Assembly: GCA_006212115.1 (NCBI GenBank)
Contig: PDUK01000027.1
Span: forward strand, 1 to 35,082
Length of the DNA: 35,082 nt
Origin: Thalassolituus sp.
Lineage (GTDB): Bacteria > Pseudomonadota > Gammaproteobacteria > Pseudomonadales > Oceanobacteraceae
Direction of reading: 5' to 3'
Numbering within the stretch: the first letter of the stretch is position 1; every line of letters starts with the position of its first letter. Below, one piece after another: positions 1 to 10,757 of this stretch. A model generated the notes under the pieces. That model did not search any database. It was not told the DNA's origin and saw only the letters and a program-made list of their open reading frames with translations. The translations under genes were made by a program, and so were the position numbers.

Positions 1-725
1 ATGTCGATAGGCAGGCTGTAAGAAACAACAAATTTCAGATCGTCGTCCATGCTGTCTTCAGTTTCTTCGTCGATGATCTTGCTGGCAGTGAAAGACAGGT
101 TGTCGTTGTACGCGTAGCTCAGGTCAAGGTGAGTGTAGCCACCGTCAACGTCATCCATAGCCATACCAACTGTGGCACTGTACGCATCCATACCGTAGCC
201 GAGAGTCAGGTAGCTGTATTCGTCTGGGTTGCTTGATACTGGGTAGTAGTAAGAGAAAGACGCGCCTTCGTAGCCAAGAGATACAATAACCTCAGACAGG
301 TCGAAGGTGTTGCCGCTTGTATCTTGCTCAAGCGCATCAGGGGTAGTGTTGCCGTCTTCGTCGGTACGATCGTAGTAAGCGAAGTTACCAGCACTTGGGT
401 ATACATAAGACCACACAGAGATGTCATAAGAGAAACCTTCCATCTCACCGCCGTAGCCGATGTAGAGATCGTATTCATTTCCTGAAGCGCTGTCGCCGCT
501 TGAAGTCCAAACGCCAGCGTACGCACCGCCAACAGACAGGGCAATATCACCAGAAACCGCAGGAGAACCGTTACCCAGGTCCTGTCCACGCCACAGGTAC
601 ATGCTTGCAACGGCTGCAGATGCAGATACTTCTACAGCGTGATCGTCTGCTTGAGCCAGTTGAGCACCAGTCAGACCTGTAGTCATAACACCAGCGAGAG
701 CGATTGCTTTAGTCAGTTTTTTCAT
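1..725 (-). CDS. TorF-family putative porin (Gcw_chp type), partial
   Basis: The start codon is at 725-723 and the 3' end lies beyond the left window edge, so about 241 residues are visible. The N-terminus MKKLTKAIALAGVMTTG...AQA is a clear Sec signal peptide. The mature part shows SASAAVASMYLWRGQDLG followed by alternating polar/aromatic beta-strands rich in Tyr, Gly, Asp and Ser. That opening (strand, then LWRGQ/S) is typical of the TIGR02001 'gcw_chp'/TorF putative porins of proteobacteria. The role is inferred: outer-membrane uptake of small solutes. It is divergent from ubiK. In Pseudomonas relatives ubiK sits beside glnK-amtB, which fits the nitrogen-type promoter found upstream here (824-839, with an NtrC-like site at 968-984). 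The substrate cannot be read from sequence. Confidence 0.85.
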   Translation of the reverse strand, partial: MKKLTKAIALAGVMTTGLTGAQLAQADDHAVEVSASAAVASMYLWRGQDLGNGSPAVSGDIALSVGGAYAGVWTSSGDSASGNEYDLYIGYGGEMEGFSYDISVWSYVYPSAGNFAYYDRTDEDGNTTPDALEQDTSGNTFDLSEVIVSLGYEGASFSYYYPVSSNPDEYSYLTLGYGMDAYSATVGMAMDDVDGGYTHLDLSYAYNDNLSFTASKIIDEETEDSMDDDLKFVVSYSLPID

Positions 726-823
726 CGTTCTTTTTCCTATATACAGTTTTTTTTTTAGCTGTTGATCTTTCTAAGTTATGTTCACCGATGCAACGCACCG
801 ATTTCATTCTGTGATGTCCATAA

Positions 824-839
824 AGCAGGCTGCATGCCA
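824..839 (-). promoter_or_regulatory. sigma-54 (-24/-12) promoter of the porin
   Basis: On the minus strand the sequence is TGGCATGCAGCCTGCT. It keeps the invariant GG and GC separated by 10 bases and closely matches the consensus TGGCACG-N4-TTGCT. Transcription would start near 812, giving a leader of about 87 bases before the ATG at 725. Spacing and sequence are direct observations; function is inferred. Confidence 0.75.
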
Positions 840-967
840 ACCTTACCAATACCTTTAAAAATCAAAGGCTTAGGGTATTTTTAGTCAATTTTACAATCGT
901 TGACGCTTCCAAAATGGGGCATGAGTGGGTTTTAAGCACCCATTTATGGCACACCCGAACAGCTACG

Positions 968-984
968 TGCGCAATATTGGTGCA
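968..984. promoter_or_regulatory. NtrC-type enhancer site
   Basis: TGCGCAATATTGGTGCA is an imperfect palindrome closely resembling the NtrC sites of glnA promoters (TGCACC-N5-GGTGCA). It lies about 150-165 bases upstream of the predicted sigma-54 start of the porin, a usual distance for an NtrC enhancer. A weaker GCACC-containing stretch at 936-952 may be a second, degenerate site. Confidence 0.65.
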
Positions 985-1050
985 TATTCCATAACCACCT
1001 CGCAAAATCCCTTTCTGGTACACTAACGACCTGTAGACCGGAGGTATCCC

Positions 1051-1281
1051 ATGAAAGCCGACATGATCAAAAACCGTATCGAAGAATTATTACACCAAAG
1101 TCCATTTGCCAGCCTGTCATCTGACCTGAAGCTGGCCCTGCAAGCCCAACTGCAGAGTGTTATCACCAGTGCTAACCTGGTGACGCGTGAAGAGTTTGAT
1201 GTACAGGCGGAAGTGTTGCGTCGTACCAGTGCACGACTGGCGGAACTGGAAGAGCGAGTTGCTAAGTTAGAGGCAGAGTGA
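1051..1281 (+). CDS. ubiK: UbiK/YqiC accessory factor of ubiquinone biosynthesis
   Basis: This 76-residue protein of the BMFP/YqiC family has a full-length, typical layout. The N-terminal amphipathic segment MIKNRIEELLHQSP is followed by helical residues to about 45, and the C-terminal coiled coil is VTREEFDVQAEVLRRTSARL then AELEERVAKLE. In E. coli UbiK binds UbiJ and helps the aerobic ubiquinone (Ubi) complex in the cytosol or at the membrane. The start is supported by GGAGG 8 bases upstream. A strong terminator follows at 1302-1328, so it is a single-gene unit. Homologues commonly lie next to glnK-amtB and the YifB ATPase in pseudomonads; here the porin takes the flanking position. Confidence 0.93.
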   Translation: MKADMIKNRIEELLHQSPFASLSSDLKLALQAQLQSVITSANLVTREEFDVQAEVLRRTSARLAELEERVAKLEAE

Positions 1282-1301
1282 TCTGCTGATGCTTTGATGA
1301 G

Positions 1302-1328
1302 GCGGCCTGATGGCCGCTTTTTTTGTTT
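1302..1328 (+). terminator. Rho-independent terminator of ubiK
   Basis: The stem GCGGCC/GGCCGC (1302-1307 and 1312-1317) has a TGAT loop and is followed by seven T residues and a further T-rich run. It begins 21 bases after the ubiK stop. Confidence 0.93.
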
Positions 1329-1377
1329 TGTAGCCGCTAGCGCGGGCTGGCTTTTTTGACTGCCGACAGGGTTCTAT

Positions 1378-1573
1378 TGCCCTGTTTGGGGATTGCATCC
1401 CCGGGCGGGCAGCCCCTCCCCTGCTTCGCGCTTTCTGGGCCGTATTCCTTCACAGAACTTGAGAACCCTCGCAACGGGCCAATGCAGCATCCCTGCTGCC
1501 TGCCCCTTGCCCGGCATCCATGCCGAGGCCATGCGGGCTTCTCTCCATTCTGTTCGGCGGCCCCAGAGGCGCA
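1378..1573 (+). repeat. Left unit of an inverted mosaic repeat
   Basis: The unit starts with a 66-bp block (1378-1443) that matches the reverse complement of 1878-1943 at 65 of 66 positions. It ends with a 16-bp block (1558-1573) that is the exact reverse complement of 1747-1762. The 114 bases between the blocks are not visibly colinear with the right unit. Internal hairpins are GGGGAT-tgc-ATCCCC (1388-1402) and CGGCAT-cc-ATGCCG (1512-1525). The ORFs here in several frames are by-products of high GC; none has a credible start or family. Confidence 0.85.
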
Positions 1574-1746
1574 TTTATCAGTCCGCAAAAGTATCGTTCT
1601 TAATTAAATAGGTTTTACCGCAACGCTTTTTAGTGGGTGTGCCCACCCCTCGTTTCCAAATCAACACGTAGAGTGCGCATTACGCACCACACACTTTAAC
1701 GTTAAGACTAATATATCTTTGGAATACGATATTGAGGGCTAAATTC
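1574..1746. other. AT-rich spacer between the inverted units
   Basis: The 173-base spacer has lower GC than the flanking repeats. It carries two short hairpins, GTGGG-tgtg-CCCAC (1633-1646) and GTGCG-catta-CGCAC (1673-1687). The latter, preceded by CGTAGA, resembles a GTGCG...CGCAC palindrome dispersed in many bacterial genomes (from memory). No coding potential was recognised. Confidence 0.5.
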
Positions 1747-1943
1747 TGCGCCTCTGGGGCCGCTGAGATTTACGCCCGCTTTGAAGGCAACGAGAGGCAG
1801 GATGCCGAACGAGGCTCCATACGGGCATGGATGCCCGCCGGAGCCGTTTACCGGAAAAGCCAGTAAATATCAGAAACACGGCCCAGAAAGCGCGAAGCAG
1901 GGGAGGGGCCGCCCGCCCGGGGATGCAATCCCCAAACAGGGCA
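1747..1943 (-). repeat. Right unit of the inverted mosaic repeat
   Basis: This is the inverted partner of 1378-1573. Both end blocks are conserved at nearly the same separation (115 versus 114 bases), but the middle is replaced. The middle contains an extended hairpin at 1813-1845: outer stem GGCTCC/GGAGCC and inner stem CGGGCAT-gg-ATGCCCG. The unit lies just downstream of urtE (stop at 1993) and could act as its transcript end, although no T-run is present. Confidence 0.85.
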
Positions 1944-1992
1944 TCAAAACCCGGCGGCAGCTAAAGAAGCGCCCCCACGCCAGTGGCTACCA

Positions 1993-2691
1993 TTAAATAG
2001 CCAGAAGCTCCTTCGCTTCCTCAGAATGCTCAAGCTCCTCACCCGTCCCCTGACTCACTACTCTCCCCCGCTCGAGAATAATAAATTCATCAGCAAGTTC
2101 TTTCGCAAAGTCGAGGTACTGTTCAACAAGAACAATCGCCATATCACCGCGATCACGCAGTAGTTTAATCACCCTACCAATGTCTTTGATGATGGATGGC
2201 TGAATCCCCTCAGTCGGTTCATCAAGAATCAGCATTTTAGGGCGCAGTAGCAACGCACGAGCAATGGCCAATTGCTGTTGCTGGCCACCGGAGAGATCAC
2301 CGCCCCGCCGTTTGAGCATCTGCTGCAAAACCGGAAACAGTGAGAATACTTCCGGGTCGATAAAGCGCTGTGCCCGCGGTACTGCCGAGAAGGCAGTCTG
2401 TAGATTTTCTTCCACCGTCAGCTGCGGGAAGATATCCCGCCCCTGCGGCACAAACGCAATACCTTGTTTAGCACGATCATATGGCGCTAATTTCATGATG
2501 CTTTTGCCATCCCAGGCGATATCGCCCGAACCGGGTGCCAGGTGCCCAGCGAGGGATTTCATCAGGGTCGTTTTACCAACGCCATTTCGCCCCAGCACAC
2601 AGGTGACTTTACCTACGTCGGCTTTCATGCTGACGTTGTATAACGCCTGACTCGCGCCGTACGACACATTTAAATCTGTTACATTCAACAT
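1993..2691 (-). CDS. urtE: Urea ABC transporter ATP-binding protein UrtE
   Basis: This 232-residue LivF-type ATPase is of normal length. Visible motifs are Walker A GRNGVGKT (34-41), Q-loop VPQGR (81-85), signature LSGGQ (133-137) and Walker B MLILDEP (153-159). LVEQ (188-191) stands where many ABC proteins have the H-loop, as is usual in LivF proteins. The conserved phrase DEPTEGIQPSII (157-168) is strongly UrtE-like. It energises urea import with UrtD on the cytosolic face of the UrtBC channel. It is the last gene of the minus-strand urt operon; its ATG follows the urtD stop by one base, implying translational coupling. No T-rich terminator follows; the right repeat unit does. Confidence 0.96.
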   Translation of the reverse strand: MLNVTDLNVSYGASQALYNVSMKADVGKVTCVLGRNGVGKTTLMKSLAGHLAPGSGDIAWDGKSIMKLAPYDRAKQGIAFVPQGRDIFPQLTVEENLQTAFSAVPRAQRFIDPEVFSLFPVLQQMLKRRGGDLSGGQQQQLAIARALLLRPKMLILDEPTEGIQPSIIKDIGRVIKLLRDRGDMAIVLVEQYLDFAKELADEFIILERGRVVSQGTGEELEHSEEAKELLAI

Positions 2692-2692
2692 A

Positions 2693-3460
2693 TCAGCGCC
2701 CCAGATACACTTCGATAACCTGCTGGTTATTCTTCACATTAGCCAGACTGCCTTCTGCCAGTACAGACCCCTCGTGCAATACCGTCACACGGCAATCCAG
2801 TGCTTCAATGAAATCCATATCGTGCTCGACGACCATTAACGAATGCTTTTTAGAAAGCTCTTTAAATAACTCAGCGGTTTTCATGGTTTCTTCATCGGTC
2901 ATCCCTGCGGCCGGTTCATCGATCAACAGTAGCTCAGGCTCCTGCCCGAGCAACATGCCGATTTCCAACCACTGTTTCTGACCGTGAGATAAGCTGCCTG
3001 CGTCTTCGTACAGTCGATCTTTCAAATCAATCATGGATAAAATTTCATCAATTTTATCCTGCTTCGCACTCGTAAGTTTGTGCGTCAGCGCCTGCCAGAC
3101 TGAACGACCACCTTTCAATGACATTTCCAGATTTTCGAATACCGTAAGGCTTTCAATCACGCTGGGCTTCTGGAATTTTCGGCCTACGCCCATGTTCGCC
3201 ACCTGAGCTTCATCGAAACGCGTCAGGTCATGCTCATCATTAAATAGAATGGTGCCTTCATCAGGGCGGGTCTTTCCTGTGATCACATCCATCATGGTAG
3301 TTTTACCCGCACCGTTAGGACCAATGATCGCCCGCATTTCACCCGGCTCAATAAATAACGAAAGAGAGTTCAGTGCTTTAAAGCCATCAAAACTGACACT
3401 TACACCGTCCATATACAGAACAGTGGGTTGATCAATATGTTTGGTTTTTGCGAGGCTCAT
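2693..3460 (-). CDS. urtD: Urea ABC transporter ATP-binding protein UrtD
   Basis: This 255-residue LivG-type ATPase has Walker A GPNGAGKT (47-54), Q-loop around KFQKPS (95-100), signature LSHGQ (157-161), Walker B LLLIDEP (177-183) and H-loop VVEHDMDF (210-217). LSHGQKQWLEIGMLL is typical of UrtD. Its start overlaps the urtC stop by 4 bases (ATGA), and urtE begins one base after its stop, so urtCDE are tightly coupled. It should pair with UrtE in a heterodimeric ATPase. Confidence 0.96.
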   Translation of the reverse strand: MSLAKTKHIDQPTVLYMDGVSVSFDGFKALNSLSLFIEPGEMRAIIGPNGAGKTTMMDVITGKTRPDEGTILFNDEHDLTRFDEAQVANMGVGRKFQKPSVIESLTVFENLEMSLKGGRSVWQALTHKLTSAKQDKIDEILSMIDLKDRLYEDAGSLSHGQKQWLEIGMLLGQEPELLLIDEPAAGMTDEETMKTAELFKELSKKHSLMVVEHDMDFIEALDCRVTVLHEGSVLAEGSLANVKNNQQVIEVYLGR

Positions 3461-4629
3461 ATTTTGCCCTCCGCATTATCCGTAGCGGGCTTACCAGACT
3501 GGCCGCCCCCGCCGGAGGAGAAAAACTTATCTTTAATCTGTGCCCATAAACCGACCACGCCTTTTGGCAGATACAAGGTCGTCAGGACAAACAAGCCACC
3601 CAGCATAAATAACCAGAGCTCAGCAAAAGCACCGGTGAAGTAGGTTTTCGCATAATTAACCAGTACAGCGCCGATCACGGCACCAAATAAGGTTCCACGC
3701 CCGCCCACTGCGACCCAGATAATCATCTCAATCGAATTAATTGGTGCAAATTCGCCGGGGTTAATAATACCGACCTGAGGAACATATAAGGCGCCGGCAA
3801 CGCCCGCGAGCATGGCGGACACCACAAAGACAAAGAGCTTGTACCACTCGACCCGATACCCCAAGAAACGAGCACGTGATTCACTATCACGAATTGCGAC
3901 CAGCACTCTTCCGAGCTTCGACGTCACAATAAATCGGCTGATTAAATAACCAAGTATCAACGCAATGCCGGACGCAAAGAAGAGCGCAGCGCGAGTAGAG
4001 TCCGCCTGTAAGTCAAAGCCTAAGATATCTTTAAAGTCTGTCAGGCCGTTGTTACCACCGAATCCCATGTCGTTACGGAAAAATGCCAACAGCAGCGCGT
4101 ATGTCAGTGCCTGTGTGATAATCGAGAGATAGACACCGGTAACGCGTGAGCGGAAAGCCAGAGCTCCAAATACAAAGGCAAGAATCCCCGGCGCTGCGAG
4201 CACCATCACCATGGCAAACCAGAACTGATCAAAGCCATACCAGTACCAAGGCAACTCCGTCCAATTCAGAAAGACCATAAAGTCGGGAAGTTCCGGGTTG
4301 GCGTATACGCCGCGGTCACCAATCTGGCGCATCAGATACATGCCCATCGCATACCCGCCCAGAGCAAAGAAAGCGCCGTGTCCTAGACTGAGAATACCGC
4401 AGTATCCCCAGATCAGGTCCACCGCGACCGCCAATAGGGCATAGCAGAGGTACTTACCAAGTAGTGTCATGGTGTACGTCGAGACGTGAAAAGCAGAGCC
4501 TTCCGGAAACATCAGGTTGCAGAAGGGCACAATCACGGCAATCGCTAGGATGATTGCCATCATTCGACGCCCCGCAACATCATTCATAATCAGCCGGGTT
4601 AAAGGGCCGCCTTTTATTTCTTGTTTCAT
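3457..4629 (-). CDS. urtC: Urea ABC transporter permease UrtC
   Basis: This LivM-type inner-membrane permease has 390 residues when started at 4629. That ATG (MKQEIKGGPLTRL) has AGGAG 7-8 bases upstream, overlapping the urtB stop. The more upstream in-frame start at 4659 would lie inside urtB and has no such site. There are about ten hydrophobic segments, the first at AIILAIAVIVPFCNLMF. Family motifs include WGYCGILSLGHGAFFALGGY and VAVGGRGTLFGAVIGA. The C-terminus is hydrophilic with a short Gly run. It forms the channel with UrtB and ends with an ATGA overlap on urtD. Confidence 0.95.
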   Translation of the reverse strand: MKQEIKGGPLTRLIMNDVAGRRMMAIILAIAVIVPFCNLMFPEGSAFHVSTYTMTLLGKYLCYALLAVAVDLIWGYCGILSLGHGAFFALGGYAMGMYLMRQIGDRGVYANPELPDFMVFLNWTELPWYWYGFDQFWFAMVMVLAAPGILAFVFGALAFRSRVTGVYLSIITQALTYALLLAFFRNDMGFGGNNGLTDFKDILGFDLQADSTRAALFFASGIALILGYLISRFIVTSKLGRVLVAIRDSESRARFLGYRVEWYKLFVFVVSAMLAGVAGALYVPQVGIINPGEFAPINSIEMIIWVAVGGRGTLFGAVIGAVLVNYAKTYFTGAFAELWLFMLGGLFVLTTLYLPKGVVGLWAQIKDKFFSSGGGGQSGKPATDNAEGKI

Positions 4630-4639
4630 AGTGCGCTCC

Positions 4640-6262
4640 TTAACCCATATCCGCGGCACGGCCTTTCAGGGCAAACAACCCGCGAGGACGCTTCTGGATA
4701 AACAGAATAATAAATATCAATACGAGAATTTTAGCGACGACCGCGCCCGCCCAGGGTTCCAGTAGTTTATTAACAACACCTAAAGACATGGCGCCAACTA
4801 AGGTGCCCCAGAGGTTACCCACACCGCCGAACACAACGACCATAAAGGAATCGATAATGTAGGCTTGCCCCATATTAGGACCGACGTTGGTCAACTGGGA
4901 TAAGGCCACACCAGCAATACCGGCAATCCCTGAGCCGAGTCCAAATGTCAGGGCATCGACCCAACCGGTACGAATACCCATTGAGCTGGCCATCGGGCGG
5001 TTCATGGTGACGGCACGCATCTGTAATCCAAACAGCGTTCGCTTTAAAACGAGAGCCAGAAGTGCCAGTACCAGCAAGCTAAAAATAATGATGTACAAGC
5101 GATTAAACGTCAGCTCAAGCGCTGGGTTAATCATAAAGGTACCCGCCATCCAGTCAGGCGTGGCGACTTCACGGTTTAACGGGCTGAATACGGAGCGGAC
5201 AGCTTGTTGCAACACGAGGCTGATACCGAAGGTCGCAAGCAGTGTTTCCAGAGGGCGTCCGTACAAGTGACGAATCACGCCCCGCTCAATCGCAATACCG
5301 ACTAATCCACTGACCAAAAAGGCCGCCGGAATAGCGACGACGAGAGACATACCTATGTGGTCTGGCATCAATTGCTGCACTACATACGTGGTGTAAGCCC
5401 CCAGCATAATCATTTCACCATGGGCCATATTAATAACACCCATCACACCGAAGGTGATGGCAAGACCAATTGCCGCCAGTAAAAGAACGGCGCCCAGTGC
5501 GAGGCCGAAATACAAATTCTCTGCAACGCTATTCAGCGTTAACAGGCTTTCAATTTTTTCGATGGCCTCGTTCACTGCCTGTAACTCAGTCGTACGACCA
5601 TCTGCTTCGGCAGAGCGTTGAAAGTTCGCCAACGCGCCTCGCACATCCGGGTATAAGGAACCCGATAACAATGAAATACCTTCGAGACGCTGAGCTTCGT
5701 TATCGGCATCGAGTAAGCGGATGCCTTTCACTAGCAAGAGAACTTCATTTACATCTGTATTCTTTTCAGTATTCAGCGCCTGTTCCAGAGTTTCAGGATC
5801 AAGATCATCGGCAGATTTAAGAAGGTTAACTGCGGCTTGCATACGCTGCTCAGGGTCATCGGAGAAAACCTGCAATCGAGCAATACCACCTCGAAGAACA
5901 ATACGCAGTTTGTTATTAACACTGATCTTTTTTATGTCGCGCTTACTTTTCAGTACGACTTCCTTGCCCGTAAAAAAGCTGGTAATGGCGTCATCACCAT
6001 TAATCACAATTACGCGATCGTCTTTTCGGTAATACAGATCGCCATCGACCATTACCTGCATAAATTTAAGGGTATTCGGATCTTCGATCGTGGTGAGGCG
6101 CTCGGTCAGCGCCTGCTTTTCACGAAACCCTGCATCAATAAGTTCTTGAGCAATTGCATGCAGCGCGGTGTTGGGTTTTTCGGGCGATGCATCAGCCCCG
6201 GCCACCACAGGGTACATAACACACGCGAACAGCAATACCGTCCGTTGGATAACAGATAACAT
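4640..6262 (-). CDS. urtB: Urea ABC transporter permease UrtB
   Basis: This 540-residue permease has the N-terminal extension that marks UrtB. A signal peptide (MLSVIQRTVLLFACVMYPVV...GADA) is followed by a ~220-residue periplasmic, mostly helical domain with the repeat-like phrase VNEAIEKIESLLTLN. A LivH-type membrane domain starts near residue 250. Family motifs are ITFGVMGVINMAHGEMIMLG and VVFGGVGNLWGTLVGA. The start has AGGTG 7 bases upstream. It is separated from urtA by about 98 bases that contain two strong hairpins (6288-6348), unlike the tight urtBCDE junctions. Confidence 0.95.
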   Translation of the reverse strand: MLSVIQRTVLLFACVMYPVVAGADASPEKPNTALHAIAQELIDAGFREKQALTERLTTIEDPNTLKFMQVMVDGDLYYRKDDRVIVINGDDAITSFFTGKEVVLKSKRDIKKISVNNKLRIVLRGGIARLQVFSDDPEQRMQAAVNLLKSADDLDPETLEQALNTEKNTDVNEVLLLVKGIRLLDADNEAQRLEGISLLSGSLYPDVRGALANFQRSAEADGRTTELQAVNEAIEKIESLLTLNSVAENLYFGLALGAVLLLAAIGLAITFGVMGVINMAHGEMIMLGAYTTYVVQQLMPDHIGMSLVVAIPAAFLVSGLVGIAIERGVIRHLYGRPLETLLATFGISLVLQQAVRSVFSPLNREVATPDWMAGTFMINPALELTFNRLYIIIFSLLVLALLALVLKRTLFGLQMRAVTMNRPMASSMGIRTGWVDALTFGLGSGIAGIAGVALSQLTNVGPNMGQAYIIDSFMVVVFGGVGNLWGTLVGAMSLGVVNKLLEPWAGAVVAKILVLIFIILFIQKRPRGLFALKGRAADMG

Positions 6263-6287
6263 AGTTCACCTGGGAGAAAGAGAAGAT

Positions 6288-6348
6288 GGAGGCAGGAAAA
6301 CCCCTGCCTCCGTGTCTAGGGCATTTCTGAACAATTCAGAGGTGCCCT
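6288..6348 (-). promoter_or_regulatory. Tandem hairpins between urtA and urtB
   Basis: Two stem-loops lie in the urtA-urtB gap. The first on the transcript has stems AGGGCA/TGCCCT (6318-6323, 6343-6348) enclosing TCTGAA-caa-TTCAGA (6326-6340). The second is GGAGGCAGG/CCTGCCTCC (6288-6296, 6303-6311) with a 6-base loop. Neither has a T-run downstream. They are therefore better read as mRNA stabilisers or partial attenuators that keep the binding-protein transcript more abundant than the downstream genes. Confidence 0.6.
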
Positions 6349-6360
6349 GGAACTGAACGA

Positions 6361-7674
6361 TTACTCGCCAGCGACCGTTGAGCCACCACAGGTCTTGGTG
6401 ACAGTGTTGTAGTTGCCGCAGTTCACTGGAGCAGTCCAGTCAGAAATGAGGTTTGCGCTTTCTGGCAGATAATCTGTCCATGCATCGCCTTTCACTTCGG
6501 CATCTGTCGCCCATACGATTTCGAACTGACCGTCTTCCTGAATCTCACCAATCAGAACTGGCTTGGATAGGTGGTGGTTTTCGTTCATCACCGCGGTACC
6601 GCCTGTCAGGTTAGGTACTTCGATGCCGTACATTGCAGAGCGTACTTTATCGACATCCGCAGAGCCTGCTTTTTCAACTGCTTCTGCCCACATGCTGAAG
6701 CCAATGTAGGTCGCTTCCATTGGGTCGTTGGTTACGCGGTCTTCGTCACCAATGTAGTTCTGCCAAGCTTCAATGAACTCATCGTTCGCTTCACTTTCCG
6801 CACTCTGGAAGTAGTTCCAGGCTGCCAGGTGACCCACCAGAGGAGCAGTATCAAAACCAGACAGTTCTTCTTCACCAACAGAGAAAGCAACTACCGGGAT
6901 ATCTTCAGAAGCGACACCCTGGTTAGCCAGTTCTTTGTAGAAAGGAACGTTTGCGTCACCGTTGATGGTAGAAACCACCGCAGTTTTCTTACCTGCGCTA
7001 CCGAACTTCTTCACATCAGAAACGATGGTCTGCCAGTCGCTGTGACCAAATGGCGTGTAGTTCACCATGATGTCTTTTTCAGCAACGCCTTTTGACTTGA
7101 GGTATGACTCAAGAATTTTGTTGGTCGTACGCGGGTAAACGTAGTCTGTACCGGCAAGTACAAAACGCTCAACACCGAGATCATTAATCAGATAATCAAC
7201 CGCAGGAATAGCCTGCTGGTTTGGCGCAGCACCTGTGTAGAAAACATTGTAAGAAGATTCTTCACCTTCGTACTGTACCGGGTAGAACAGCAGGCCGTTC
7301 AGTTCTTCTACTACTGGAAGAACAGACTTACGGGATACAGAAGTCCAGCAACCGAAGATCACATCAACGTCTTCTTTTTCCAGCAGTTCACGGGTTTTCT
7401 CCGCGAACAACGGCCAGTTTGAAGCAGGGTCTACAACCACTGGCTCCAGTTTCTTACCCAGCAGACCGCCTTTTTTGTTTTGCTCTTCGATCATCATCAG
7501 AACGGTATCTTTCAGAGTCGTCTCTGAAATAGCCATGGTACCTGAGAGAGAGTGCAATACGCCTACTTTAATGGTGTCATCTGCTGCATTAGCGATGCTT
7601 ACGCCTGCCGCCATTGCAGTCATACCAATAATTTGTGACGCCTTAATCAGAGTTTTGAGACTTACTTTTTTCAT
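6361..7674 (-). CDS. urtA: Urea ABC transporter substrate-binding protein UrtA
   Basis: This 437-residue periplasmic binding protein of the amide/urea type (Peripla_BP_5, FmdD-like) has a signal peptide MKKVSLKTLI...IANA ending near residue 30. Conserved UrtA phrases include KVGVLHSLSGTMAISE, FGCWTSVSRKSVLPVVE and LLFYPVQYEGEESS. Further phrases are VLAGTDYVYPRTTNKI, FGHSDWQTIVSDVK and GGTAVMNENHHLSKP. It captures urea and delivers it to UrtBC. The start is preceded by AAGGAAATAATT, a good ribosome binding site. A sigma-54 promoter lies about 95-110 bases upstream. It is the first gene of urtABCDE; no urease gene is in the window. Confidence 0.96.
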   Translation of the reverse strand: MKKVSLKTLIKASQIIGMTAMAAGVSIANAADDTIKVGVLHSLSGTMAISETTLKDTVLMMIEEQNKKGGLLGKKLEPVVVDPASNWPLFAEKTRELLEKEDVDVIFGCWTSVSRKSVLPVVEELNGLLFYPVQYEGEESSYNVFYTGAAPNQQAIPAVDYLINDLGVERFVLAGTDYVYPRTTNKILESYLKSKGVAEKDIMVNYTPFGHSDWQTIVSDVKKFGSAGKKTAVVSTINGDANVPFYKELANQGVASEDIPVVAFSVGEEELSGFDTAPLVGHLAAWNYFQSAESEANDEFIEAWQNYIGDEDRVTNDPMEATYIGFSMWAEAVEKAGSADVDKVRSAMYGIEVPNLTGGTAVMNENHHLSKPVLIGEIQEDGQFEIVWATDAEVKGDAWTDYLPESANLISDWTAPVNCGNYNTVTKTCGGSTVAGE

Positions 7675-7768
7675 AATTATTTCCTTTTTATGGTCAGGAT
7701 TATGTCCGGCCTCAACTCTATAAACTGGGGGTGTGTAGAGTGGGCTGTTATAAAACCGATTCTATATG

Positions 7769-7784
7769 AGCAATCGTCATACCA
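7769..7784 (-). promoter_or_regulatory. sigma-54 (-24/-12) promoter of urtABCDE
   Basis: The minus strand reads TGGTATGACGATTGCT. The GG and GC are 10 bases apart and the TTGCT half is perfect, with two mismatches in the TGGCACG half. The predicted transcription start is near 7758, giving a leader of about 84 bases. GTGC/GCAC words occur upstream (7853, 7864, 7877, 7907), but no properly spaced NtrC palindrome was found. Confidence 0.7.
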
Positions 7785-7943
7785 ATTTAAGGCACCGATT
7801 TAGCCTGCTACGTCATAAAAACGCCCCATATAAATGCATATAAAGAAATAACGTGCATTTGCCGCACGAATAAAGCGCACATCTCATTTATATATGATCT
7901 TTTAAAGTGCGTAATAGAAATTAGCTGGGTATATATTGATAGG

Positions 7944-7972
7944 AATAAAAAAGCCCAGGCGAACCTGGGCTT
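7944..7972 (-). terminator. Terminator of the peroxidase gene
   Basis: The stem AGCCCAGG/CCTGGGCT (7952-7959 and 7964-7971) has a 4-base loop. On the minus strand it is followed by TTTTTTATT. It lies about 30 bases after the stop of the 8001-10757 gene, between that gene and urtA, so the two are probably separate transcripts. Confidence 0.92.
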
Positions 7973-8000
7973 TCGTCATACAGTCAAAGTAAATTGACTA

Positions 8001-10757
8001 TTAACGGTCTTCGTAGCGCTGGTGCTTGAAGAACACACCAGAGTCACCAAATACCGAAGTGGTGAACTCGGAGGTCAGAACCAACTCACCAACTTTTACA
8101 GCGTCATCACGACGTTCCTGCTGAAGACGAAGTTGCTTAGATGCCCAGACAGAGGACTTAATCTCAATGTCGGTCGCATAAACATCATACAACTTAGTGC
8201 CTTCCGGCAAGCTTAACAGGTCAGCACGGAAGTCATGCTCAGACTCAGCAAACAGTCCAGAAACTTCAGCCGTTGGAACAAAGTAAACCTGTGTCGGTTT
8301 AACCGGGTTCGCTTCGGCCGTGCCGTCTGATTGTGTTTCAGCCATAGCGTCTGCCATAACCAGTGTTGGCTTGCTGGTCACGAACGAGAACAACAGGCTG
8401 GAACCCAGAGTATCGTTCGCTTCGAGGCTAACGTAGTTCGACAGTTCATTAGCGAAGAAGTCGTAGTTATCTTCCTGGCCAGACAGCGTGTACAGAGCAG
8501 AAATGTTCTCTGATGGCTTACCGTCGATCAGAGTCTTCCATGCAAAGCCCGGTGCGAAACCACGGTCAGCTGGATCACCCGTTACAGACAGACGCAGCAG
8601 GCCACACTCATTACCTTCAAACACACCAGTGTATGGGTGGTTGCCCGTTGAGTTGAACGCCACTTTCGCCATCGCACCGTGAGGGTGGATCGGCTTGCTG
8701 TGACCAACAGGTGCTACATCACCAACGTACTCAACTTTATCGCGGATAACGCCACTGATCAGGCCACCGATGTCGACTTCTGGAATCGCTGGCAGTTCGC
8801 CTTCTTCGTACGTAGTACGCAGCGCACCGTTGGTCCAAAGCAGGTTCTGCTTATCACAGGCCGCCCAGTTCTCATAATCCGCAGGGACATTCAGACCCCA
8901 TGGTTTAAAGGCGTTATCGATACCAGCCAGTGACAATTCAAGAGATGGGAAGTGACGCTTAATCACGTCAACCATCGTCGTGTTCTCAACCCAGTTATAA
9001 CCTTCTGGAGTGTATACCTCAGGGGTGTAGTACTCGGTGAAGAAGCGGTCGGTAATGATGCGACGGGATGCGTTCATGATAAAGATCTGGAACGCAGTCT
9101 CACCAAAGCCGAAGCCTTCAGGACGAACGTTCTCAGCCAGCTGGCCAACCAGTGCATCCAGTTTTTCAACGTCGTTGTCGTACAGGCGACGCATTTCTGT
9201 AACCAGCTCTTCGTCGTCTGTCAGATCCGAGAAGTCATTGATTGGCGTCAAACCAATCTGACGACGGAATTCGTTATAGCGAGGCACGCCGCGCTCACGG
9301 TCACGAATAATATCAATGGACGCGAGGTCTATGGTGCCACGACCCGGAACGTTCAGATTACGCAGGAACTCAGGGTAGTTACGCAGCGTCAGTGCACCCG
9401 GCAGGGTCACACCAAATGAGTACCACAGGCGATCTTCGCTCTGGTCATCCATGATGTCTTCAGCATTGCCATCACGTGTTGCGTTCATCGCGATCTGCTC
9501 GCTGACTACATTTGAGCCAATGTCATAAACATCTACTGTGTCACGCAGCAGAGGGTGCATACGGTATACCGCAACAAACTCTTCTGTCAGAGTAAATGGC
9601 GTGCCAGCGTTATCAGACTTACGTGCACCTGCAAGACCGGAGATTGCCCATTCAAGCGCCTTACCGTTATCCAGTGCTTCTTCCATTTTTGGGTCGAAGC
9701 CAAGAATACGGCGTACCCAGGAATCAGATTTAGCAAGATCCTCAGCCAGCTTTTCAAACTCGGCCGCATACTTGTCACGGTTTTCAGTATTGCCTGCAAG
9801 GCCCCACCAGTTCGCGTACATTGCACGCTCTGTCACAGGGTTCGCAATGATCGCTGGTGTCCATTCAACTGTATGGATCTTAGCCATCAGAGCCGCGTTA
9901 ATCAGACGCGCCTTGTCGTACAACCACTGGTCATCTTTATCCGGGTAAGTTGAAGCCAGCATGTCTGCAATGGTGTTGTGCTCTTTAACAAAGATCTGAT
10001 GCAGCATGCTCAGACCGAGCCACCAGTTGTCAGTGAAACCAGTGATTGGCACGCCAGTCATAAAATCAGTTGGCAGTGAGCCATCTGCGTTAACCGTCAG
10101 GCGGCCGCCCTGGAATTCACGGATTGAATTCGATGTTTCAAGATCGCTACCGTAAATCTGCGAGCCATCCCACCAGTGCGTGTTTTCGTTCAGATAAGCG
10201 TCTGGCAAGCCAGCCTCATCTTCAGCAGCGATGCGCGTTGGATCTGGGATAGTGCGGCGAATAGACATGGTGCCAGGCGCATCCGGGTCGTTCGCTGGTA
10301 ATTCAAACTCGATGTAATCGCTGGTAGAGCCATCACCGTGGCTGAACCAATCGTGAGTCATAAACTGAATCCACGCTGCAGCAATAAAGTTGAGCGTCGG
10401 TGCAGGCTTAAACTCGTCACGGGCCATCAGTGAGTTACTGATATCTCGAGGGTTAGGCGTCAGCAGCGTGTCTGTCTCACCATAAGCGGCGTCCAGAGCA
10501 ACGTTGCGACCAAAGCGTCGGTTTGCCGAGCCCTCGGCAGGGTTTTCAAGGATGTTACAAGTACCGTCTTCCATACGCGCAGTGAGGCTGCGCTCGTCAC
10601 ATTCAATATCGGCGTTGTATTCATCCCAACGCTCAAAATCAAAGAGATTATTTTCAAACAGTTCGTTTCGTTCAACGGCGAGCGTAAGCAGGCCGGCCAG
10701 GATCCCGAGCGTCCCGTATTTCACGAGCGCGGGCCAGGTAACCCAGATGCTAGTCAT
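8001..10757 (-). CDS. Alpha-dioxygenase-like heme peroxidase with extra C-terminal domain
   Basis: The protein has 918 residues. One hydrophobic segment (about 12-28) makes an N-terminal membrane anchor; no lipobox or cleavable signal is evident. Residues ~85-600 are an animal-type heme peroxidase of the alpha-dioxygenase branch. AAWIQFMTHDW (127-137) carries the distal His135, WWDGSQIYGSD spans 195-205, KIHTVEWTPAII 293-304, and VYRMH (397-401) gives Tyr398 and the proximal His401. RDRERGVPRYNEFR (485-498) is also conserved. In plant alpha-DOX the Tyr three residues before the proximal His is the radical site oxidising fatty acids to 2-hydroperoxides; it is retained here. Residues ~650-918 form an additional domain (IHPHGAMAKVAF at 690-701, FAPGFAWKTLIDGK at 734-747) with possible, unproven catalase-like features. 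It is a single-gene unit: GGAG precedes the ATG and a terminator follows. Confidence 0.85.
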   Translation of the reverse strand: MTSIWVTWPALVKYGTLGILAGLLTLAVERNELFENNLFDFERWDEYNADIECDERSLTARMEDGTCNILENPAEGSANRRFGRNVALDAAYGETDTLLTPNPRDISNSLMARDEFKPAPTLNFIAAAWIQFMTHDWFSHGDGSTSDYIEFELPANDPDAPGTMSIRRTIPDPTRIAAEDEAGLPDAYLNENTHWWDGSQIYGSDLETSNSIREFQGGRLTVNADGSLPTDFMTGVPITGFTDNWWLGLSMLHQIFVKEHNTIADMLASTYPDKDDQWLYDKARLINAALMAKIHTVEWTPAIIANPVTERAMYANWWGLAGNTENRDKYAAEFEKLAEDLAKSDSWVRRILGFDPKMEEALDNGKALEWAISGLAGARKSDNAGTPFTLTEEFVAVYRMHPLLRDTVDVYDIGSNVVSEQIAMNATRDGNAEDIMDDQSEDRLWYSFGVTLPGALTLRNYPEFLRNLNVPGRGTIDLASIDIIRDRERGVPRYNEFRRQIGLTPINDFSDLTDDEELVTEMRRLYDNDVEKLDALVGQLAENVRPEGFGFGETAFQIFIMNASRRIITDRFFTEYYTPEVYTPEGYNWVENTTMVDVIKRHFPSLELSLAGIDNAFKPWGLNVPADYENWAACDKQNLLWTNGALRTTYEEGELPAIPEVDIGGLISGVIRDKVEYVGDVAPVGHSKPIHPHGAMAKVAFNSTGNHPYTGVFEGNECGLLRLSVTGDPADRGFAPGFAWKTLIDGKPSENISALYTLSGQEDNYDFFANELSNYVSLEANDTLGSSLLFSFVTSKPTLVMADAMAETQSDGTAEANPVKPTQVYFVPTAEVSGLFAESEHDFRADLLSLPEGTKLYDVYATDIEIKSSVWASKQLRLQQERRDDAVKVGELVLTSEFTTSVFGDSGVFFKHQRYEDR

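Follow-up and report, generated by a model that had tools for sequence, protein, structure and literature searches.

Control of glnK by NtrC is textbook knowledge. In other bacteria glnK is the first gene of an NtrC-controlled glnK-amtB operon, whereas in relatives of the DNA described here a porin gene comes first. NtrC binding sites follow a consensus of the TGCACC/T-N5-A/GGTGCA form. The crossing of the outer membrane by scarce ammonium, urea and amines is usually left to general porins. One named porin, TorF of Shewanella, is controlled by TorR.

A membrane-associated protein has been described together with glnK and amtB in Herbaspirillum seropedicae. The nlmA(orf1)-glnK-amtB genes of this bacterium are NtrC-dependent, and amtB::lacZ expression was 21 times higher under nitrogen limitation (PMC3023670). 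NlmA takes its name from its presence in membrane extracts of nitrogen-limited cells, and the available part of the paper gives its function as unknown and its location as "most probably in the periplasm", citing Noindorf 2006 and Huergo 2010 on nlmA-glnK-amtB (PMC3023670). The terms nlmA, glnK, amtB and porin are absent from the H. seropedicae genome paper. For P. aeruginosa amtB, a table on the effects of NtrBC gives values of -19.2 and -15.7, in an excerpt that leaves out the column headings (PMC7214821). TorF (SO4694) is annotated as a TMAO reductase system outer membrane porin, according to the excerpt available (PMC5955497). Among the matches listed in a search of titles and abstracts, with subscription journals mostly outside its range, none links TorF/Gcw_chp porins to NtrC or glnK. 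The portions available of the literature on P. putida, P. stutzeri, B. cenocepacia, Shewanella and A. ferrooxidans likewise contain no mention of this porin.

The upstream region of a TorF-family porin

The window, meaning the whole stretch of DNA that was analyzed, is 35,082 nucleotides long. It is an entire contig (G000:C31) of an 84.5% complete assembly, and the first base of the contig lies inside a porin gene. The features at this end are as follows.

3-725, minus strand: TorF-family putative porin (TIGR02001, PF09694), 241 codons to the contig edge
824-839, minus strand: predicted sigma-54 (-24/-12) promoter element of the porin transcript, TGGCATGCAGCCTGCT, about 99 bp upstream of the porin ATG
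935-951, no strand: second, weaker NtrC-like site, 9.7 bits, 33 bp away from the other one and centred about 130 bp upstream of the predicted start
968-984, no strand: NtrC-type palindrome farther upstream, TGCGCAATATTGGTGCA, centred about 163 bp from the predicted start
1051-1281, plus strand: ubiK (BMFP family), divergent from the porin, 66.9 bits against PF04380 (cut-off 37.2)

The porin scores 63.5 bits against TIGR02001 (cut-off 47.15) and 47.7 bits against PF09694 (cut-off 24), a family of unknown function according to Pfam. Its reading frame is open up to the first base of the contig and, judged by the C-termini of relatives, it is missing about the last codon and the stop. The ubiK product also matches NF047835 at 51.4 bits, under the cut-off of 100. 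The gap upstream of the porin measures 325 bp (726-1050).

An earlier note on this DNA had claimed a correct GG-N10-GC spacing on the minus strand and an NtrC palindrome at 968-984, and both claims hold. TGGCATGCAGCCTGCT occurs once in the window, its GG and GC are spaced by exactly 10 bases, and it is the top sigma-54 match of the window on both strands (16.1 bits) in a scan with sigma-54 and NtrC matrices that are approximate and typed from recall. The top NtrC match in the same scan is 968-984, at 17.8 bits with a runner-up of 13.0, and TGCGCAATATTGGTGCA has 2 mismatches to TGCACC-N5-GGTGCA. Sigma-54-dependent promoters are marked, at promoter distance, by a TGGCAY-N5-YTGCW-type element with a GG-N10-GC core, and the element at 824-839 has this form. 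It predicts a transcription start near 813 and a 5' UTR of about 88 nt. Membership of the NtrC regulon is recognized in sequence by palindromes 100-170 bp above the start that are conserved in orthologues. Such palindromes are found here, the second of them being weak in the window. The genome to which the window belongs has rpoN, and it has seven NtrC-model matches at E ≤ 1e-60, only one of which is above the NtrC cut-off. No known RNA family reached the gathering score in positions 1-8100 of the window.

A sigma-54 or NtrC match taken singly is not beyond chance. Loose patterns gave 141 sigma-54 matches in the window against 180 expected, and 17 NtrC matches against 19.6 expected. In 30 resampled windows, sigma-54 matches of at least 16.1 bits occurred at a mean of 0.33, about one per three windows, and NtrC matches of at least 17.7 bits at a mean of 0.033. 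The strict pattern TGGCAYNNNNNYTGCW occurs 16 times in the whole assembly and its reversed control 14 times, so the bare pattern is neither rarer nor commoner than chance. What lifts the two matches above chance is that both top matches share one 325-bp gap upstream of the porin and that their arrangement is conserved. The regulatory case rests on place and conservation.

Genes for a urea transporter lie on the other side of ubiK.

1993-2691, minus strand: urtE
2693-3460, minus strand: urtD
3457-4659, minus strand: urtC, start uncertain
4640-6262, minus strand: urtB
6361-7674, minus strand: urtA-like binding protein, named from PF13433 (Peripla_BP_5) and its place, not from the urtA model
7769-7784, minus strand: candidate sigma-54 element upstream of urtA, TGGTATGACGATTGCT, 14.3 bits
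7822-7838 and 7863-7879, no strand: two weak NtrC-like sites upstream of urtA, 11.7 bits each

The urtE, urtD, urtC and urtB genes score above the cut-offs of TIGR03410, TIGR03411, TIGR03408 and TIGR03409, respectively. Of 18 urtA upstream regions, counting that of the window, 16 have a sigma-54 site of at least 12 bits, which lies at -89 to -110 in 10 of them, and NtrC-like sites of at least 11 bits are found in only about 7 of the 18. Upstream of the urea transporter genes, 8001-10757 on the minus strand encodes a 918-aa protein of the animal haem peroxidase family (PF03098). Between ubiK and urtE, 1369-1449 and 1872-1952 form an 81-nt inverted repeat, 93% complementary and 422 nt apart, which may be a small mobile or palindromic element. 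A partial copy stands at the start of another contig of the assembly (G000:C136), and an ORF at 4111-4464 of locus L031 resembles part of the element, judged by eye.

Conservation and gene order in relatives

Relatives of the porin were taken from 55 related genomes, 41 of which had a match (the window's own included), and from 25 named loci; several of the loci are, by length and place, the same contigs. The nearest named porin is that of an Oleibacter marinus MAG, at 82%. To these were added the best-scoring TIGR02001 loci, at most 30 per search, from a class-wide search (68 of 143 genomes positive) and an order-wide one (61 of 115). L025, with 2 bp upstream, was left out before the table was made, and L131 and L147 (113 and 15 bp upstream) before the final count. 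This count covers 104 distinct porins, identical proteins being taken once, with at least 250 bp upstream. The pair was scored as present when the best sigma-54 match reached 12 bits and an NtrC match of at least 11 bits lay 60-220 bp above it.

Upstream of most of these porins, a sigma-54-like element lies 57-163 bp from the start, with an NtrC-like palindrome farther up; L024 and L049 lack both. When 14 rows (L001-L014, window included) are aligned, TGGCA and CTGCT are invariant in all 14 and the spacer varies. Counted upstream from the sigma-54 element, the NtrC-like site begins at 144-145 bp in 13 of the 14 rows, and a second NtrC-like site of at least 9 bits is present at 111-112 bp in 8 of the 14. 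Two further 16-base stretches are equally conserved, the best lying on the ribosome-binding side of the leader, and the sigma-54 element is therefore among the most conserved stretches and not the sole one.

The pair stands upstream of 75 of the 104 porins, namely 58 of the 70 that are beside glnK and 17 of the 34 that are not. With nearly the same rule it was found in 58 of 75 porin regions, compared with 16 of 3279 real 450-bp control stretches and none of 3000 shuffles. These counts are effect sizes and not probabilities, since the score thresholds were chosen after a first look at the upstream regions and the rows are related. The glnK-adjacent porins with the pair span 29 family labels, by a hand count from the tree listing. 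Those without it number 12 of 70, including L153 and L156, which lack a sigma-54 match. Among near relatives that fail, L021 and L041 have no NtrC-like site of 11 bits, L027 has a site outside the distance range, and the sigma-54 match of L042 is 11.6 bits.

A tree built from the 104 proteins places the window in a clade of 44 rows (support 100/100), of which 38 have a sigma-54 match and, upstream of it, an NtrC-like one. This clade holds 29 glnK-adjacent rows with the pair and 4 without, and 9 detached rows with it and 2 without, the window and L040 being labelled glnK-adjacent in the tree. Named isolates, such as Bacterioplanes sanyensis and Alcanivorax species, have both the porin gene and the sites. 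The earlier note would have given up its idea if the GG-N10-GC element were not conserved in relatives; the idea survives this comparison, with the pair kept in 38 of the 44 clade porins and in detached copies as well.

Contig ends cut off the window and L040, so that 32 of the 34 porins away from glnK count as truly detached, and the pair is kept in 15 of these. They are five Alcanivorax-type copies, L016, L050, L051, L052, L053, L082, L083, L092, L151 and L152; some loci were classed as detached with little flanking sequence to go by, down to 1.5 kb in L151 and L152. The L016 porin is divergent from a urtA-like gene (by eye), L050 and L051 have ureC on the same stretch, and L052 is from Marinobacter. 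On the tree, well-supported branches force at least 5 changes in the state of being detached with the pair. The remaining 17 detached copies lack the pair. This rules out the idea that every TIGR02001 protein is nitrogen-controlled, and the second TIGR02001 gene of the window's own genome (L110, G000:C7:30701-31357), which sits on a long branch, is among the copies without sigma-54 and NtrC sites. Another genome, G049, has two members of the family, one beside glnK without sites (L156) and one divergent from a urtA-like gene with sites (L016/L105), as if the nitrogen switch had moved.

The gene order in relatives is urtD-urtE, ubiK (on the opposite strand and not found in all), porin, glnK, amtB. 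The earlier note had set the porin beside ubiK in the place where relatives have glnK-amtB. The porin is indeed beside ubiK, but in relatives it does not replace these genes; it lies there between ubiK and glnK-amtB and on the same strand as the latter. In close relatives the porin, glnK and amtB are on one strand, and the porin is directly followed by the other two. Across the scored loci glnK comes after the porin in 70 of 104, and the porin-glnK gaps are 13-271 bp, mostly 50-90. A separate sigma-54 promoter for glnK was considered and rejected: in a scan of the gap plus the last 60 bp of the porin, made without the 30 order-wide loci, a site of at least 12 bits was present in only 1 of 49 gaps (L096, 271 bp). 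The runners-up were L086 at 7.6 bits and L039 and L054 (gap 191) at 4.6. L096, a single lineage, has a strong sigma-54 site before the porin and another before glnK, with NtrC-like matches upstream of each. Because 48 of the 49 gaps have no such site, the operon as a whole is most likely transcribed from the promoter before the porin. A search of the window's own 84.5% complete assembly, run without a positive control, did not find glnK. As no glnK turned up and the contig breaks off within the porin gene, we infer co-transcription here from close relatives (e.g. L002 and L003). By this comparison of gene orders, the promoter most likely serves a porin-glnK-amtB operon that is cut off by the contig end.

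The predicted pore and the hairpin behind its gene

An AlphaFold2 model from a 50-row alignment is a 12-stranded barrel with a mean pLDDT of 83.4 and a pTM of 0.78. A sequence comparison with the PDB gave no relative at E ≤ 1, and the Foldseek TM-scores are modest. A second structure aligner places KdgM first (Z 15.2, rmsd 2.7, 156 residues), followed by intimin, the Vibrio oligogalacturonate porin and FapF at Z 14.4-14.5, and NanC at 13.3. KdgM and NanC share with this porin a small barrel, and their identity to it is 8-9%. Since intimin, FapF and others score between these two, the likeness is one of fold only. The structural neighbours have other substrates. A tblastn search against plasmid records gave two weak, uninformative matches.

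The protein is very acidic, with a net charge of -34 in 215 residues, the mature part having 38 D+E and 4 K+R. Judged by the alternation along the strands, the conserved residues pointing into the barrel include Y69, W73, E84, D86, D101, Y107 and Y172. The predicted acidic lumen could suit cations or polar neutral solutes better than acidic sugars, which is a weak clue because porins lacking the pair are likewise acidic. Acidity was also considered as a sign of nitrogen control and set aside as weak; the mean net charge is -21.6 in porins without the pair compared with -28.6 in those with it.

Many relatives have a strong hairpin just 3' of the porin stop codon (e.g. L002:1453-1497, minus strand, and L028:2140-2184, plus strand). 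The window ends before this position, and the hairpin is known from the relatives. Taking the space up to glnK and excluding gaps under 25 bases or with N, a stem of at least 8 pairs is present in 52 of 64 glnK-adjacent gaps, compared with 8.8% of 3200 shuffles, and in 13 of 33 other copies. A looser first count, based on runs of paired bases, gave 56 of 68 gaps, yet also 292 of 1360 shuffles. Covariation was assessed in an alignment of 21 of the 68 gaps (19 distinct) from the window's genus and family. Here 99.4% of 171 cells are paired and 4 of the 9 pairs have changed on both sides, while slid versions of the alignment pair at 14-44%. The number of further pair types, one of five covariation measures, was reached by 39 of 500 shuffles. 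An ordinary terminator is unlikely for most of these hairpins, as at least 5 T in the next 8 bases were found in only 8 of 52. The hairpin may instead act as a control of the mRNA end or of read-through, so that more porin is made than GlnK-AmtB.

A proposed nitrogen-controlled outer-membrane pore and its alternatives

Our preferred explanation, which we consider quite probable as a whole, is that 726-1050 acts as an NtrC-activated sigma-54 promoter for the porin and very probably for glnK and amtB, and that the porin is a nitrogen pore. The regulatory part is well supported by genome comparison. When glutamine falls, NtrB would phosphorylate NtrC, which would bind both NtrC-like sites, with centres some 163 and 130 bp upstream of the start; lying 33 bp apart, these are on about the same face of the helix. 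NtrC would then loop to the RNA polymerase-sigma-54 complex at 824-839 and open a promoter that reads leftwards into the porin. The porin, a small and strongly acidic outer-membrane barrel of 12 strands, would be made first, with GlnK and AmtB next. In relatives, the hairpin behind the porin stop codon probably increases the proportion of porin message relative to glnK-amtB. Small nitrogen compounds (ammonium, amines, urea, amino acids) could cross the outer membrane through this pore on their way to AmtB and Urt. There is a good case for the porin as a putative nitrogen-scavenging channel of the outer membrane. The earlier note's proposal of a nitrogen-starvation outer-membrane channel is supported in its regulation, as judged by sequence, and in its predicted barrel fold, but it does not extend to every TIGR02001 protein, as the pair is absent from 17 of 32 detached and 12 of 70 glnK-adjacent porins.

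Several other explanations have to be weighed. A chance resemblance with no promoter function would agree with loose single-sequence matches that are no commoner than expected. It is contradicted by the control stretches, far below the porins in which the pair recurs at promoter distance across 29 family labels, by the 14-row alignment and by the 104-porin count, and we regard it as extremely improbable. A sigma-54 promoter driven by an enhancer-binding protein other than NtrC is improbable as well. Seven NtrC-model matches, with a single one above the cut-off, and the two mismatches in the window's palindrome leave some room for it. Sites in relatives such as L005 and L007, on the other hand, read TGCACC/T-N5-A/GGTGCA at conserved spacing, and glnK-amtB is next in the relatives.

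The promoter could also belong to glnK-amtB, with the porin a passenger at the head of the operon that has no nitrogen-uptake role of its own. With glnK after the porin in 70 of 104 loci, promoter conservation could stem from glnK alone, and the 17 detached copies without the pair also fit. This reading has to contend with the 15 detached copies that keep the pair on several separate branches, some of them beside urtA-like or urease genes, and with a porin-glnK hairpin that is maintained with compensatory changes; we think it unlikely. A greater, though still lesser, likelihood attaches to a porin that is nitrogen-regulated but serves physiologically for something other than nitrogen compounds, such as a general pore made in starvation to change permeability. 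The family namesake in Shewanella is annotated, in the excerpt available, as a TMAO-system porin (PMC5955497), and KdgM, first among the structural matches, is a porin for oligogalacturonate. The nitrogen pore is favoured by the repeated linkage to urt, ure and glnK-amtB, and the strong acidity would disfavour acidic sugars.

More tentatively, and with somewhat less than even confidence, the preferred explanation can be extended to a whole branch of the Gcw_chp/TorF family, which would form the outer-membrane gate of nitrogen scavenging. An acidic 12-stranded pore would be made first from an NtrC-controlled porin-glnK-amtB message, the hairpin would set the excess of pore over GlnK-AmtB, and copies relocated beside urea transport or urease genes would carry the same switch. 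If so, AmtB and Urt would have a dedicated partner in the outer membrane. A porin family that Pfam lists without a known function, and that stands before a PII protein and an ammonium transporter in many proteobacterial families, behind an apparent nitrogen-starvation switch, would then supply a definite outer-membrane step. The hairpin also suggests a possible simple way for one operon to make a large amount of pore and a small amount of regulator.

The locus and its relatives share the predicted promoter and enhancer types and, in the relatives, the glnK-amtB cargo with the NtrC/sigma-54-controlled glnK-amtB operons found elsewhere. TorF of Shewanella shares the family label and is tied by annotation, in the excerpt available, to TMAO reduction and not to NtrC (PMC5955497). 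The likeness to nlmA-glnK-amtB of H. seropedicae is that there too, from the part of the paper available, the gene of a membrane-associated protein heads glnK-amtB (PMC3023670). The present arrangement differs from the latter in its predicted barrel, in the adjoining urea transporter genes and in the intercistronic hairpin of relatives. If NlmA is itself a TIGR02001 protein, the regulation has already been shown in one betaproteobacterium, and what is new would be the identity as a barrel, the breadth of the arrangement, the detached copies and the hairpin.
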